The notes under the pieces: generated by a model | The model's database searches: none | What the model saw: the letters and a program-made list of their open reading frames with translations, nothing else | What the model was told of the DNA's origin: nothing | In this document: positions 40,963-46,587 of the stretch, piece by piece | Layout: each line of letters starts with the position of its first letter | Position numbering within the stretch: the stretch's first letter is position 1 | From: Acetobacteraceae bacterium | Lineage (GTDB): Bacteria; Pseudomonadota; Alphaproteobacteria; Acetobacterales; Acetobacteraceae | Assembly: GCA_947475245.1 (NCBI GenBank) | Contig: CANJLW010000002.1 | Coordinates: 1 to 64,000 of the forward strand | Direction of reading: 5' to 3' | Length of the DNA stretch: 64,000 nt | Made by a program: the position numbers and the translations under genes

Positions 40963-41166
40963 ATGCCCGCGGACGAGCATAGCCCGGAGTTTCTGCGCGG
41001 GTGGGAAGCCGCCCTGCGCGCCGCCGGCGATTGGCATGACTCCAAGGCCAAGCGCGCGCTGGTTTTGGCCAAGCGATCCCGCTTTCCCAAAAACCTCGAA
41101 CGCGAAGCCGAACTGCACAAGGACGCCGCGGAAGCGGTGCTGACCCTGAGTCCGGACGACGTTTAA
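40963..41166 (+). CDS. Small hypothetical protein
   Basis: This 67-residue protein (MPADEHSPEFLRGWEAALRA, ending in an acidic LSPDDV) is mostly helical and charged, with no cysteine and no membrane helix. I do not recognise a family. It follows the other small gene at 6 bp, and its end overlaps the end of the convergent MFS gene by 4 bp. The tight packing with both neighbours supports it as real. Confidence 0.5.
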   Translation: MPADEHSPEFLRGWEAALRAAGDWHDSKAKRALVLAKRSRFPKNLEREAELHKDAAEAVLTLSPDDV

Positions 41167-42329
41167 CGGGGCGCCGGTCGCCCAAGCAGCAGCGCCAGCG
41201 TCAGCAATCCGAATCCCGCCAGCACCAGGGTCGGCGCGTCGCCCAACACCGTCAGCGCCAGCCCGTACAGCACCGGCCCCACCGTCTGACCGATGAAAAA
41301 GTGGAACGCGTGCAGGGCCACGGCCGATCCCCGGGCCTGCGGCGCAAGTTCCGTCACCCGCGTCTGGATCGAGTTGTGCACCATATACATGCCGACCCCC
41401 AGCAGCAGGCCGGAGGCGACGAACAGCGGCGCGGTCGGGGCGAAGCCGAAGCCCGTCAGCGCCATCAGGCACAGCACGCCGCCCAGTCGGACCATCGCCG
41501 CCTGTCCGATGCGGTTCAGCACCATGCGCGCGATGGCCGCGTAGATCAGCCCGCCGCAGCCGAACGCGGCGACCACGAAGCCCGCCACCGCCGTCGATCC
41601 CAATCCGCGCGCCTGCAATATCGGCGCGAAATAGGGGAAGCTGCCGAACACCAGCGCGCCCTCCACCGCGACGGAGGCATACAGCACCAGCGCGGCGCGC
41701 ATGCCGAACAACTGCCGATAACGTTGCAGCGCCAATGCCGGATTGAACCGATTGGCGACCTCCGCCGGCAGATGCCGGCCACCCGCCAGGACCGCAAGCG
41801 CGGCGCTGCCGGTCACCAGGCCGGCGGCGATCATCACGCCCCGCCATCCCAGATAGGGTTCCAACAGCCCCGCCACGGTGCCGCCGGCGATTTGGCCGGC
41901 GATGGCGAAGGCCAGCAGGCGCGACAGCGCCACCTGCCGATCCTGGGTGCCCACGGAATCGCCGACCAGCGCGATCGACAACGGCATCACGCCGCCCGCG
42001 GCCAGGCCGGCCAAAGCGCGCAGCACCAGCAGGGAGTCCAGGGTTGGTGCCAGCGAGGATATGGCCAACAAAACCGACAGCACAGTCAGGCCGAAGGCAA
42101 TGACGCGGCGTTTACCCAGCGCGTCACCCACCGGTCCCAAAATGGGTTGGATCAAGGCGAAAGGCAGCGCGAAGGCACTGGCCAACAGGGCGACGCGCGC
42201 GGCCGGCGCGCCCAAATCCTGCGCCAGCACGATCACCAGAGGGTCCGTGATGCGTGTTACCAACGTGCCAGCGAAGACGCCGAGCGCCAGAATGGCGATC
42301 AGTCGTGCGGTACCCGGATTGCCTGTCAT
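41163..42329 (-). CDS. MFS transporter
   Basis: This 388-residue protein has about 12 membrane segments typical of the major facilitator superfamily. PVGDALGKRRVIAFGLTVLS between helices 2 and 3 is the MFS motif A region (G-D-x-x-G-x-R). SRLLAFAIAGQIAGGTVAG lies in helix 5, the motif found in drug/proton antiporters. It may therefore export a toxic compound. No regulator is adjacent. The start is the ATG at 42329. Confidence 0.85.
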   Translation of the reverse strand: MTGNPGTARLIAILALGVFAGTLVTRITDPLVIVLAQDLGAPAARVALLASAFALPFALIQPILGPVGDALGKRRVIAFGLTVLSVLLAISSLAPTLDSLLVLRALAGLAAGGVMPLSIALVGDSVGTQDRQVALSRLLAFAIAGQIAGGTVAGLLEPYLGWRGVMIAAGLVTGSAALAVLAGGRHLPAEVANRFNPALALQRYRQLFGMRAALVLYASVAVEGALVFGSFPYFAPILQARGLGSTAVAGFVVAAFGCGGLIYAAIARMVLNRIGQAAMVRLGGVLCLMALTGFGFAPTAPLFVASGLLLGVGMYMVHNSIQTRVTELAPQARGSAVALHAFHFFIGQTVGPVLYGLALTVLGDAPTLVLAGFGLLTLALLLGRPAPR

Positions 42330-42623
42330 GGCCCGGAAAGTCGCCGCAATGCCCGATCAGGGCAACCCGTGTTTTCGGAAATTTGCTGTCCGATACAGAA
42401 AATTCTCGATCGCGCGTGTGTCGTTGCCGCCGGCGATGCATGTCGTCGTATCTTGCGAGGGGGCTGATCCCAGGCTTTGACCGATCGATCCGAGTGCCGC
42501 GACCGTCCAGGGGGCATCATGTCGCGATTGGCGCGAAGATGGGGATTGGATAGTACGGCGGGATGGATAGCCCCATGAGACCGTCTGCTTCGTCCGCATC
42601 GCGTAATCCGTGAACAAGACCTT

Positions 42624-43800
42624 ATGCACCGTGAGAAACGGACCACTGCCCGCGCCCGCGCTCTCGATCAAAGCCCCCCGATCGTTCCCGCCGCCCCTGC
42701 TCGGCGTATGTCACTTTCTCGGAGGAAGGACCCCTTGCACCGTGACAACGCCCAAGCATTCGTCCAACTTCCCATGCGGAACGAAAACCCGACGGGAATA
42801 CCTCATGCGCCGTGAGCGGACCTGTCGCTGTCCGGGAGGCTCCAAGAAACTCCCACGCACCGAATATCGTCCAACCCGCCCCCGCTGGAGCCGCATGGAA
42901 CGAAAATCCGGCGAAGGAACCCTATGCGCCGTGACAACGCCCCAGCGTCCGGTGTCGAGCGCAGGCACTTTGGAATGCTGGGAGTTTCACGGTGTTGGCG
43001 CGGAGTTTCACGGAGGCGGTGGATCAACGCCTGGGCGATTGTCCGGCCGCCCGCGTGGAATGAAAACCCGACGGAAATACCTCATGCGCCGTGAGCGCAC
43101 CTGTCGTTGTCCGGCAGGCTCCGCGGAACTCCCACGCACCGAATATCGCCCAACCCGCCCCCGCTGGAACCGCATGGAACGAAAATTCGGCGAAGGAACC
43201 CTATGCGCCGTGACAACGCCCCAGCGTCCGGTGCCGAGCGCGGGCACTTTGGAATGCTGGGAGTTGCACGAAGTTGGCGCGGAGTTTCACGGAGGCGGTG
43301 GATCATCGTTCAGGGGATCGTCCGACCGTCCGTGCGGAACAGAAATTGGGCGGGAATACCTCATGCGCCGTGAGCGCACCTGCCGCTGTCCGGGAGGCTC
43401 CGAGAAACTTCCAGGCACCCAATATCGCCCGACCCGCCCCAGCCGGAGCCGCATGGAACGAAAATTCGGCGAAGGAACCCTATGCGCCGTGACAACGCCC
43501 CAACGTCCGATGCCGAGCGCAGGCACTTTGGAATGCTGGGAGTTGCACGAAGTTGGCACGGAGTTTCACGGAGGCGGTGGATCATCGTCCGGGGGATCCG
43601 CCAGCCGCCCGTGTGGAACAGAAATTGGGCGGGAATACCTCATGCGCCGTGAGCGCACCTGTCGTTATGCGGCAGGTTCCACGGAACTCCCACGCACCCA
43701 ATATCGCCCGACCCGCCCCCGCCGGAGCCGCTGGGAGCAGAAATTCGACGAAGGAACCCTATGCAACCTGAGAAGGGGGCCGCAACCCGCGCGCCGCGAT
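42624..43800. repeat. 279-bp tandem repeat array with alternating ATGCGCCGTGA boxes
   Basis: A 279-bp unit repeats head to tail at 42805, 43084, 43363 and, partly, 43642. By eye, units 2 and 3 differ at 24 of 279 positions. Each unit holds two related 38-nt cores, both of the form GGAAC..AAATT.GGCG and ending in ATGCGCCGTGA. The box ATGs lie at 42805, 42924, 43084, 43203, 43363, 43482 and 43642 (alternating 119 and 160 bp). Degenerate copies lie at 42624, 42735 and 43761. As the unit length divides by 3, several frames stay open, which gives long spurious frames. Differences between units 2 and 3 split 10/5/9 over codon positions in the best open frame, so no frame looks clearly protein-coding. 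Nothing else was found between 42330 and 43871. Confidence 0.9.
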
Positions 43801-43871
43801 CGAATCCCGCCGTTCGCTCCCGCCGCCCCTGCTCGGCCCCATCACGTTCGGGACTCCCCGCGAGCCCCAGC

Positions 43872-45575
43872 CTATCCCGCCGCCACCATCCCATCCGCGA
43901 TCTTCTCGGCGAGCATCAACGTCGGCACGTTGGTATTCGCGCACGGCACCACCGGAAACAGCGACGCATCCACCACCCGCAATCCCGGAACGCCGCGCAC
44001 CAGCCCCGTCGGGTCGGTCACGGCCATCGGATCGTCGGCGTGCCCCATGCGCGCCGAACACGATGCGTGCCAGACCCCGATCGCGGCCTGGCGGATGAAG
44101 GCCTCTAACTTGTCGTCGTCGCGCATCACTTCTTCGAAACGATATCCTTCGACAACGAAACGATCGATCAGCCAGCTTCGCAGTGCGCCCGGCCCATCCA
44201 GAAGTCCGGCGATGACCTTGGTCGCCAACCGGTTCTTGGTGTTCACCTGACCGATCTTGCGCACCCGGTCACTGTAGCTCGCCGGGAAGGGATCGGTGGT
44301 GACCGCGCGCAGCGCGTCGGTCCGCTGGATCGCCCCCAGCCTGCGGAAGCCGTCCATCAGTCGTTCCACGTCGCGACTGTCCGACAGCAGATTGAACGCC
44401 ACCAGCGGTTCGGCATCCGGATCGGTCGACGCCAGTTGCACCCGCCCCGCCTCGGAATACGTTTTGTTAACGAACAGGATCAGCGACGCGATCTGCTCCC
44501 CCACCGCATGCCAGGCCGACTTGCTGGCGCAGGCGACGAACATGTCGCCGGCCGGCGCGCCGGGGATGCCGGACGAGTAGCGCATGGCCAGATGGATATG
44601 GCGCCGTGTCTGCCCATCCATCCGCGCGGGCCGCTTGATGAACGAGGCCAGCCCGATCGAGGGGTGGTCCATCAGCCGAGCGCCGACACCGGGCAGATTG
44701 GCGCGGATGTCGATGCCGAGGGCGCGCAGTTCGCCGGCCGGGCCGATGCCGGCCCGCAACAGATGGGCGGGGGTGTGAATGGCGCCGGTGCACAGGATGA
44801 CCTCTCGCCCACGAAAGTCGACATCGCGTCCGGCCACGCGCGCCCGCACGCCGACGCAGACCGGCCCGTCGAACAGCAGGGCGCGCATGGTGGTGTCGGT
44901 GCTGACCGTCAGGTTGGCCCGCGCGCGGGTGGCGCGGTCCAGGTAGCCGATGGCGGCGGAGGCCCGTTGTTCGTTCTGGTTAGAGATCGTAACCGGGAAA
45001 TGCCCATCCTCGAACACGCCGTTCTGGTCCGGCAGGAACCGGCTGCCGGCGGCGGCGAAAGCCGTTTCGACGGCATTGGCGTGCGGGCACCATTGCGCGC
45101 GCGGAATGCGACGGATCGGGATGCGACCGTCCTTGCCGTGCAGCGGGCCGTCGAAGTCCAGGTCGCGCTCTACCTTGCGGAAGTAAGGCAGCACCGACTC
45201 CCAGTTCCAGCCGGTCGCGCCGCGGGACTCCCACTCGTCGTAATCGGTCGGCGCGCCGCGATTGGCCATCTGGCCGTTGATGGACGAACCGCCGCCCAGC
45301 ACGCGCGCCTGTTCGTACTTGCGCAGCGGCGGCAGGTCGGACGGGTTGTTGTGCGAAACCGGCTGGGTCCGGACCTGCAGGCCGGTCCAGTGAAAGCGCG
45401 GGTCGAAATAGGCGACGCCGGGGTAGCTGTCGGCGATCTCCGGCGGGACAGAGTCCTCCGTCAGGTCCTGTCCGGCTTCCAACAACAGCACGCGGTGATG
45501 GCTGCGCGCCGACAGGCGGTTGGCCATCACGGAACCGGCGGAGCCGCCGCCGACGATGATTGTGTCGTAGTCCAT
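43872..45575 (-). CDS. GMC-family FAD-dependent oxidoreductase (choline dehydrogenase-like)
   Basis: This 567-residue flavoprotein has the Rossmann FAD motif TIIVGGGSAGSVMANRLS at the start and the GMC signatures GGGSSINGQMANRG (about residue 90) and GAIHTPAHLLRAGIGPAGE. GVWHASCSARMG with DASLFPVVPCANTNVPT near the C-terminus supplies the active-site His and Asn positions. Family members oxidise alcohols such as choline, polyethylene glycol or long-chain alcohols. The ATG at 45575 places the FAD motif at residue 5; longer frames cover the upstream gene. The alcohol substrate is unknown. Confidence 0.92.
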   Translation of the reverse strand: MDYDTIIVGGGSAGSVMANRLSARSHHRVLLLEAGQDLTEDSVPPEIADSYPGVAYFDPRFHWTGLQVRTQPVSHNNPSDLPPLRKYEQARVLGGGSSINGQMANRGAPTDYDEWESRGATGWNWESVLPYFRKVERDLDFDGPLHGKDGRIPIRRIPRAQWCPHANAVETAFAAAGSRFLPDQNGVFEDGHFPVTISNQNEQRASAAIGYLDRATRARANLTVSTDTTMRALLFDGPVCVGVRARVAGRDVDFRGREVILCTGAIHTPAHLLRAGIGPAGELRALGIDIRANLPGVGARLMDHPSIGLASFIKRPARMDGQTRRHIHLAMRYSSGIPGAPAGDMFVACASKSAWHAVGEQIASLILFVNKTYSEAGRVQLASTDPDAEPLVAFNLLSDSRDVERLMDGFRRLGAIQRTDALRAVTTDPFPASYSDRVRKIGQVNTKNRLATKVIAGLLDGPGALRSWLIDRFVVEGYRFEEVMRDDDKLEAFIRQAAIGVWHASCSARMGHADDPMAVTDPTGLVRGVPGLRVVDASLFPVVPCANTNVPTLMLAEKIADGMVAAG

Positions 45576-45618
45576 GTCCCGTGATCCCATCTGGATTGTG
45601 CGGCGAACGGCGTTGGGA

Positions 45619-46587
45619 TCAGTTCGGCACCCAGACCGCGGCGCGGATTTCACCGAACTCCCGCGCGATCTTGCGCCAGGAGGAACCGGCGTCTTCCGTA
45701 ACGAAGACCTCTCCGAACAGCGTATAGGCCAGGATGCGGTCGGGATCGGCGGGATGTGCGGCCAGGCCCCACACGGTCGCGTTGGCCGGTGTCGGAAGCG
45801 GCAGGGTCTCCCAGCGCTGGCCGAAATCCCGGGTGCGGACCACGAACCCGCGCTCCCCGGTCGTGGACTCGCCGCAGCCGACATACAGCGTGCCGGACGC
45901 ATCCGGCCGGACCGCCATGCCGCGGGCATAGGGCAGGGGCCATTTGTCCTTGGTCCCCAAGGCATGGAAGCTGTCGCCGAGATCGTCGCTCATGAACACT
46001 TCGTTCTGGGTGCTGACGAACAGGCGCTTGGGGCGGGTCGGCGCGATCGCCATGTCGTGGATGTCGAGGTCGTTCAGACCCGCGCGCAGCGGCGTCCAGG
46101 TGTCGCCGCCGTCCATGCTGCGGAAGACGCCGTCGATTTCGACGCCCGCCCATACGATCCGATGGTCGTCCGGGTCGACGGCGAGGGCGGTTACGAAGGG
46201 GACGCCGATCGCGCATTCCCGCACGATATCGATGGCGAGCTTCTCCCAATGCCGTCCGCCGTCCTTGGAGCGATAGACCGCGGCCGGGCGCGTGCCGGCG
46301 AAGATGATGTCGGGGTCGACCGGATCGACGGCCAGCGACCAGATGGTGGGCAAATCGCCCTGCGTGCCGATGCGTTCCCACCGCGCGCCGCTGTTGTGGC
46401 TGACGAACAGGCCGGTATCGCCGCCGGCGAAGATCGTCTTCGGTTGCGTGGGATGGACGACCAACGCCTGAATGCGGCTGTTGAGGGGGAACGGGGTTCG
46501 CTGCCGAGTCCAGGAGGTTCCGCTGTCGGCACTGTGCCAAAGGCCCCAGCCAACCGTGCCGAGACAGATACCGTAATCCGCCGCCAT
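45619..46587 (-). CDS. BNR/sialidase-like beta-propeller protein
   Basis: This 322-residue protein is built of repeated units with the Asp-box pattern (SADSGTSW, SHNSGARW, SKDGGRHW, SMDGGDTW, TEDAGSSW), about 50 residues apart. This gives a six- or seven-bladed propeller like those in sialidases and VPS10-type proteins. There is no signal peptide and no catalytic sialidase set, so it is more likely a binding or assembly protein than an enzyme. It lies 43 bp upstream of the GMC oxidoreductase gene on the same strand. Confidence 0.85.
   Translation of the reverse strand: MAADYGICLGTVGWGLWHSADSGTSWTRQRTPFPLNSRIQALVVHPTQPKTIFAGGDTGLFVSHNSGARWERIGTQGDLPTIWSLAVDPVDPDIIFAGTRPAAVYRSKDGGRHWEKLAIDIVRECAIGVPFVTALAVDPDDHRIVWAGVEIDGVFRSMDGGDTWTPLRAGLNDLDIHDMAIAPTRPKRLFVSTQNEVFMSDDLGDSFHALGTKDKWPLPYARGMAVRPDASGTLYVGCGESTTGERGFVVRTRDFGQRWETLPLPTPANATVWGLAAHPADPDRILAYTLFGEVFVTEDAGSSWRKIAREFGEIRAAVWVPN

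Follow-up and report, generated by a model that had tools for sequence, protein, structure and literature searches.

Between an MFS transporter gene and a GMC oxidoreductase gene of an Acetobacteraceae bacterium lies a 279-bp unit repeated in tandem. An earlier note, made from the letters alone, left three options for it: a peptide array, a repeated RNA or a recombination element. Which of these, if any, does the repeat represent? We examined the array within the window, a 64,000-nt stretch of a 369-kb contig, and followed its repeated parts through its own genome and through relatives. Genomes compared carry G-codes, G000 being the own genome, and loci carry L-codes.

Layout of the array in the window

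TRF returned a single tandem array at 42771-43764 (period 279, 3.6 copies, 88% matches), so the repeat described before is real. The entity that repeats is smaller than the 279-bp unit. It is a directional core of about 26 nt, GRMAANACCYCATRCRCCSTGAGAAC, or about 36 nt when a weaker A/T-rich part upstream is included, with a bipartite make-up of A/T tract and GC block. Ten cores lie in the array, all on the plus strand, the inner ones separated by two kinds of module:

42613..43775, plus strand: whole core array, ten cores (weight-matrix hits)
42613..42638, plus: core 1, ATGCACCGTGA (PWM hit)
42724..42749, plus: core 2, TTGCACCGTGA (PWM hit)
42794..42819, plus: core 3, ATGCGCCGTGA, first core of the repeat unit
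42913..42938, plus: core 4
43073..43098, plus: core 5
43192..43217, plus: core 6
43352..43377, plus: core 7
43471..43496, plus: core 8
43631..43656, plus: core 9
43750..43775, plus: core 10, ATGCAACCTGA
42820..42912, plus: module A, 93 nt, again at 43099-43191, 43378-43470 and 43657-43749; type found in 14 own-genome arrays
42939..43072, plus: module B, 134 nt, again at 43218-43351 and 43497-43630; type found in 9 arrays
42979..43015, plus: second dispersed repeat TGGGAGTTTCACGGTGTTGGCGCGGAGTTTCACGGAG within module B; by the 279-bp period also 43258-43294 and 43537-43573
42619..42705, plus: left terminal unit, resembling 43756-43837
43756..43837, plus: right terminal unit, resembling 42619-42705
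42610..44250, plus: stop-free frame across the entire array, GTG start, 546 aa, with no sign of being a gene
41163..42329, minus: MFS transporter gene, left neighbour (MFS_1 E 1.5e-48)
43872..45965, minus: right-hand neighbour, an ORF for a GMC oxidoreductase whose GMC match begins at residue 133

Start-codon positions of the cores fall at 42624, 42735, 42805, 42924, 43084, 43203, 43363, 43482, 43642 and 43761. The alternation of 119 and 160 proposed earlier is reproduced after two first spacings of 111 and 70. Units 2 and 3 differ by 24 substitutions (91.4% identity) when the unit start is placed near 42800-42830, in agreement with the figure of about 91% given before; other unit phases and the first unit pair gave 24–37 substitutions. 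Over codon positions the 24 substitutions split 9/10/5 in the frame of the 42924 ATG; the earlier note had given 10/5/9 for its main frame. The suspected likeness of the outer flanks was borne out, 42619-42705 aligning with 43756-43837 at 76% over 87 columns (E 2e-15). Pfam confirmed the named neighbours as well, the right one by GMC_oxred_N/C at E 2.5e-30/1.5e-31, and both are on the minus strand. The array sits between the 5′ end of the MFS gene and the 3′ end of the GMC gene, and with both genes on that strand its cores are antisense to both. The predicted frame of about 56 residues, MRRDNAPASG..., is present at 42924-43094; its stop is the TGA of the next core, 8 nt past that core's ATG.

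A dispersed core and its module mosaics

The array has company throughout its genome (5.23 Mb, 89 contigs). The 558 bp of array that we used as a query found 76 matches there, many covering the second short repeat within the unit only; with matches at about 20 places, purely local duplication was ruled out. Allowing up to 3 mismatches, we counted 84 hits of the 26-nt core pattern versus 0 for a reversed control pattern. A weight matrix (PWM score at least 10) found 223 cores in 40 own-genome stretches plus the window, and none in base-shuffled stretches totaling 153 kb. These cores group into 36 arrays of 2–10, and no array mixes strands; near the L117 array a solitary weak core (score 10) is oriented the other way. 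Several arrays are located at contig ends, a usual place for repeats on which an assembly breaks.

We sorted the 185 modules between cores into 66 types, of which 25 have several members and 11 are present at more than one locus. Type A occurs at 14 loci and can be followed by any of eight types, itself included. Two modules alternate in many arrays (119/160 in the window, 107/112, 94/107, 114/129 and others). Such reshuffled and duplicated modules fit a process of duplication and exchange in which cores would serve as module boundaries; to this extent the recombination-element option was upheld. Core spacings run from 42 to over 400, and modules recur within and between arrays, unlike the uniform, short, unique spacers of CRISPR. 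Helical phasing and frame preference of the spacings were rejected: 124 per-array values gave 48/39/37 modulo 3, and raw Rayleigh values, for which no null was computed, were highest among the periods tried at 11, not at 10.5. A dense arrangement was noted at L112 1780-2302 (its minus strand), with eight cores at spacings 162, 42, 43, 82, 42, 43 and 82. Modules also carry a second dispersed repeat, GTGAAACTCCGCGCCAACACCGTGAAACTCC, composed of two GTGAAACTCC 21 nt apart. In G029 it occurs as inverted pairs about 116 bp apart (L031 ~1501-1665, L036 ~1501-1660), and neither of those loci has a core.

Neither a covarying stem nor a palindrome was found within the core, and folding energies were near those of shuffled sequence (mean z 0.06 in the own genome, −0.66 in G031). 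A comparison with integron attC sites likewise found no fold in the core. One covarying pair, −12/+11, was seen in G031; it counts as about one event, since it separates two core subtypes. Rfam covariance models over 42000-44500 produced nothing beyond an IRES hit at chance level (E 0.18), which lies outside the array. With no Rfam hit and no covarying stem in the core, a structured RNA was ruled out.

Do the arrays encode protein? Of 33 arrays with at least three cores, 19 are open end to end in one core-strand frame versus 8.8±1.8 after phase randomisation, a level reached in 0 of 1000 randomisations; the arrays are not independent in this test because they share modules. The antisense strand had no excess (6 versus 5.7). 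An expressed repeat protein, or a chain of coupled small peptides, would explain this openness and the 546-aa frame in the window. Against it, differences between sister modules in the 8 countable arrays showed neither codon-position bias (126/132/115) nor purifying selection (103 synonymous versus 110 expected), G+C is nearly flat over codon positions, sister modules show one-base length differences, and the frame in the window continues, on the antisense strand, into the GMC gene. We consider such a product very unlikely. These results, together with the uncoupled last-core ATG of the own genome (see below), speak against the peptide array of the earlier note. We read the excess of open frames without a kept peptide as probable descent from leader or linker sequence, or as weak selection against stops, and not as a gene. 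For residues 154-210 of the window frame, Pfam gave TYW2_N below threshold (24.8 bits where 27.8 is the cut-off), close to the EFHGVGAEFHGG stretch that the second repeat encodes; this match looks like a coincidence of periodic sequence.

We searched for the core in other genomes. We scanned 33 members of the genus for the skeleton ACCCCATGNNCNGTGAGAA, allowing one mismatch, and found it 113 times in G031, 54 in G014, 27 in G000, 21 in G026, 12 in G011 and 3 in G001, once in each of six others and never in the remaining 21. Another pattern, applied to 397 genomes of the family, had hits in 7: five of the window's genus, own genome included, then G070 of another genus (6 hits) and G111 (one). 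A scan of the GTDB collection, which may leave out the own genome, gave 14 stretches. A MAG titled Asaia bogorensis accounts for nine of them, other Acetobacteraceae MAGs for four, and a MAG titled Opitutaceae for one. The last, L134, is a 4.4-kb contig with six cores and is perhaps mis-binned Acetobacteraceae DNA. Absence of the array from all relatives, which the earlier note had entertained, thus does not hold for the core, which relatives share. The complete 279-bp unit was not found in 58 other genomes, six of which matched over stretches of 28–56 nt only, and arrays of relatives had only 3 short matching stretches (40–67 nt) to G000 modules. These comparisons establish a core common to a limited set of relatives, with spacers that are species-specific. 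No exact core match was found in viral contigs, and the array matched none of 72,556 plasmid and 50,697 phage records, by which an origin of the unit in a mobile plasmid or phage was ruled out.

Cores inside genes and their frozen codons

Cores also occur within ORFs of the clade's HGGxSTG genes (NCBIfam NF041373), a family for which our searches found no function. The family had 72 matches, and 30 loci were examined for cores. With the own-genome matrix, cores were found at 2/2 own loci, 3/3 in G001, 5/5 in G011, 4/5 in G026, 2/5 in G014, 1/5 in G031 and 0/5 in G070, so that the family is wider than the cores by this matrix. A TCCGG/CCCGG core variant, present in several G031 and G014 HGG genes, was missed by it, and in some HGG genes of these two genomes the core is apparently at the start codon. 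G070 has 43 HGGxSTG matches; the five examined, coreless by the own-genome matrix, were L162, L169, L176, L182 and L187.

Reading frame depends on position. All 34 in-ORF cores 5′ of the HGG domain are read in one frame, giving NPMHRE and similar peptides, and 14 of the 22 located 3′ of it are read in another, giving TPYAVS, with 7 in the first frame and one in the third; the core's third frame is the one that contains the TGA. A second gene family, in G028 and G009, again uses the first frame for two or three cores in a linker (L258 956-1690, L254 953-1807, L257 1300-1971). Its members have a helical-looking N-terminal part, the NPMHRE-motif linker and a conserved C-terminal part ending near DERVIAKVKA; the one member scanned had no Pfam match. 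Because the few variant cores of G009 and G028 are mostly inside genes, the ancestral site of the core may be coding.

In both frames synonymous choice is nearly fixed. Among 40 frame-0 cores in HGG ORFs, the third base of CGT/CCT is T in 36 (CGT makes up 8% of Arg codons in the background), that of CAA/AAA is A in 38, and that of Pro is C in 37. Another 15 cores were pooled from the other frames (14 from frame 2, one from frame 1). Of these, 12 have A as the last base of the Pro codon, against a background of 12% CCA among Pro codons, and in 15/15 the next two conserved codons end in C and in G. Codons for the same residue were identical across species in 794 of 877 comparisons within cores versus 405 of 787 in the HGG domain, and for Arg in 168/168 versus 47/124; nine genes entered this comparison, five of the 14 listed misfitting the domain pattern, and the pairs are not independent. 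A core read in two frames with synonymous codons frozen is conserved in its nucleotides, not its peptides, and gene conversion between cores could contribute to the codon identity. The window array is one of 36 built on a directional core whose conservation is that of nucleic acid, in noncoding DNA and in HGGxSTG genes alike.

Could the arrays be a silent reservoir that recombines into the linkers of HGG-type genes? Borrelia vls cassettes have short direct repeats between them and open frames. As the source describes them, they form a contiguous silent array beside an expressed gene (PMC11499132). The present arrays also have head-to-tail modules between short direct repeats, often open and without purifying selection, and one own HGG gene (C18) continues straight into an array. 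Unlike vls, modules are mostly under 300 bp, the 36 arrays are scattered, and any expression site would be hypothetical. There are, moreover, only 2 own HGG genes for 36 arrays, and among the matches listed the other one (C50) matches arrays over just 15–46 nt, mostly core length. We regard such a reservoir as highly improbable. That arrays are copies of HGG genes was likewise rejected, as among the matches listed the C50 gene shares little with them beyond the core.

Position before genes and a possible leader role

Position relative to genes, with gene starts taken from a simple gene caller, was examined in G031 on 40 stretches from the places listed for it (78 cores in 38 clusters). There 26 of 31 intergenic clusters with a right-hand gene were sense and 5′ of that gene (p 0.0002), 18 of the 26 at 20–140 nt before it. 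In G014 (27 stretches, leaving out two HGG-gene places and a few others) the corresponding counts were 18/23 (p 0.01) and 12/18. The own genome had 22/32 sense and 5′ (p 0.05), or 21/31 without the lone weak core, and a small set from G026, G011, G001 and G070 had 7/10. No right-gene bias appeared in a mixed set of relatives that includes some G031 and G014 loci (14 sense versus 13 antisense), where the left gene was sense in 21 and antisense in 5. Four arrays with a called gene on either side, that of the window among them, run antisense to both of these genes.

The core contains an ATG, and the earlier note had suggested that several cores look like a ribosome site plus start. In G031, the ATG of the last core (n=31) shared the frame of the next gene in 10 cases; in 5 it opened an ORF with an ATGA overlap, and in 8 an ORF whose end is no more than 20 nt from the gene start. 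The control frame gave 1, 3 and 5. The control was the +1 frame, the third being unusable because of stops inside the core. The sum, 23/31 versus 9/31, is significant (p 0.0008); the ATGA overlaps alone (5 versus 3) are not, and the signal comes from the in-frame class. G014 gave 15/22 versus 6/22 (p 0.015), a test not independent of that in G031, since many G014 sites look orthologous by their same leader peptides. The hint thus held by this frame test in G031 and G014. It failed in the own genome, where the last-core ATG was uncoupled (7/23 versus 13/23, with 0 versus 5 ATGA overlaps), in the mixed set (8/21 versus 8/21) and in the small set from G026, G011 and G001 (2/9 versus 6/9). Nine of the ten in-frame G031 proteins have Pfam hits, mostly to unrelated families (DUF427, lytic transglycolase, FGE-sulfatase, M20 peptidase, GNAT-NUDIX, zinc alcohol dehydrogenase, two methyltransferases, glycosyltransferase); all ten start M[SP]GE if read from the core, and some may start at a later Met.

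We infer from position and frame, with main support from the two related species G031 and G014, that the core has a leader role. Our preferred reading, to which we give a probability of about 0.45, is that it is a clade-specific 5′-leader or start-region element, amplified into tandem mosaics in the window's genome. Such an element would mark or control the start region of the next gene's translation, or a site overlapping it, and could act as RNA or as overlapping DNA. In G031 and G014 it lies sense, mostly 20–140 nt before the start codon, and its ATG often begins either the reading frame of the gene itself or a short leader ORF closing at or close to that start codon. Against this reading speak the missing coupling in the own genome, the mixed set and the small set, the absent right-gene bias of the mixed set, the arrays antisense to both neighbours, the mostly genic variant cores of G009 and G028, and the core ATG itself: A stands at its third base in 10% of own cores and in 25% of those of relatives, a variation incompatible with a pure start codon. 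ATA, TTG and GTG variants also ruled out that the core ATG is an ordinary start codon in every copy. Tandem mosaics would have arisen in the window's species when leaders were multiplied by unequal recombination among directly repeated cores and modules. The window array is then probably an amplified by-product; for the array itself, the analyses supported no function and gave no sign of peptide function.

A more specific version takes the core as a cassette for translation start that is able to spread (A/T tract, ACCCC, start codon, first four codons) and has been placed before or fused to many unrelated genes. The shared leader peptide (MSGEK, MHREN, MRREN) would define one regulon, with the HGGxSTG protein as self-controlled regulator, species-specific core variants would have co-evolved with that protein, and amplification of the signal for dosage would account for the arrays in the window's species. 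We find this version quite unlikely.

Alternatively the core may be a DNA operator, bound near promoters and in its own gene by a transcription factor, perhaps the HGGxSTG protein, whose Cys/His pattern led us to guess at zinc binding. The leader position and the bipartite A/T tract plus GC block are consistent with this. Cores occur in HGG genes of 8/8 genus genomes with the RNGNPRG-type subfamily, when variants in G009, G028, G014 and G031 are counted. That subfamily is present in 6/6 genomes with at least 3 skeleton hits versus 2/27 others (p 2.5e-5, with a post hoc cut-off, no correction for phylogeny, and G005 and G010, which have weaker matches of another type, counted negative). However, the core has no palindrome, and HGG-locus cores are all on the HGG strand even though the consensus is open in all three antisense frames; nothing would keep a site that acts as DNA off the other strand. 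On balance we judge an operator unlikely.

It is also conceivable that the core is a short dispersed repeat similar to REP or RPE, selfish or neutral, that spreads by being copied and is tolerated in leaders and protein linkers without any cis function. Its patchy distribution in the genus, high copy number in few species, tandem growth, and presence with usable frames in coding linkers of two gene families all agree with this. Two observations weigh against it: synonymous sites are frozen across species in non-orthologous copies, a pattern that recent homogenisation by gene conversion could mimic, and the sense 5′ bias in G031 and G014 is strong. We think it somewhat unlikely. Rickettsia palindromic elements (RPE) put one DNA sequence in coding and noncoding places, with frames staying open, and are palindromic and about 100 nt or more in length. 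The core resembles them in occupying coding and noncoding DNA with open frames, but it is much shorter, is not palindromic, is tandem, and is tied to gene starts in G031 and G014. REP and BIME sequences are described as extragenic elements of 20–40 nt in more than 100 copies, forming composite arrays and sometimes lying within genes (PMC3733652; PMC2817692). At 26–36 nt and 223 copies the core is similar, but it is not palindromic, has no covarying stem, and lacks a GTAG/CGTC tag in its consensus, and all 36 arrays keep to one strand each where BIMEs alternate in orientation. REPs are reported mainly downstream of genes (PMC3733652), unlike the upstream cores of G031 and G014. The repeat departs from REP/BIME, RPE and CRISPR in features that were tested; to class it as a new variety of short dispersed bacterial repeat would be the cautious choice. 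Searches of the open-licence literature turned up no paper about a repeat of this kind in Acetobacteraceae, nor any about HGGxSTG.

Few bacterial repeats would be like this one: a short directional element conserved as nucleic acid in leaders and, in two frames, within genes, which recurs where unrelated genes begin. Its history in the window's species illustrates how such a signal may grow into tandem mosaics that resemble peptide or RNA arrays. If the core controls translation, it would define a new leader-based regulon and offer a first handle on the HGGxSTG proteins.
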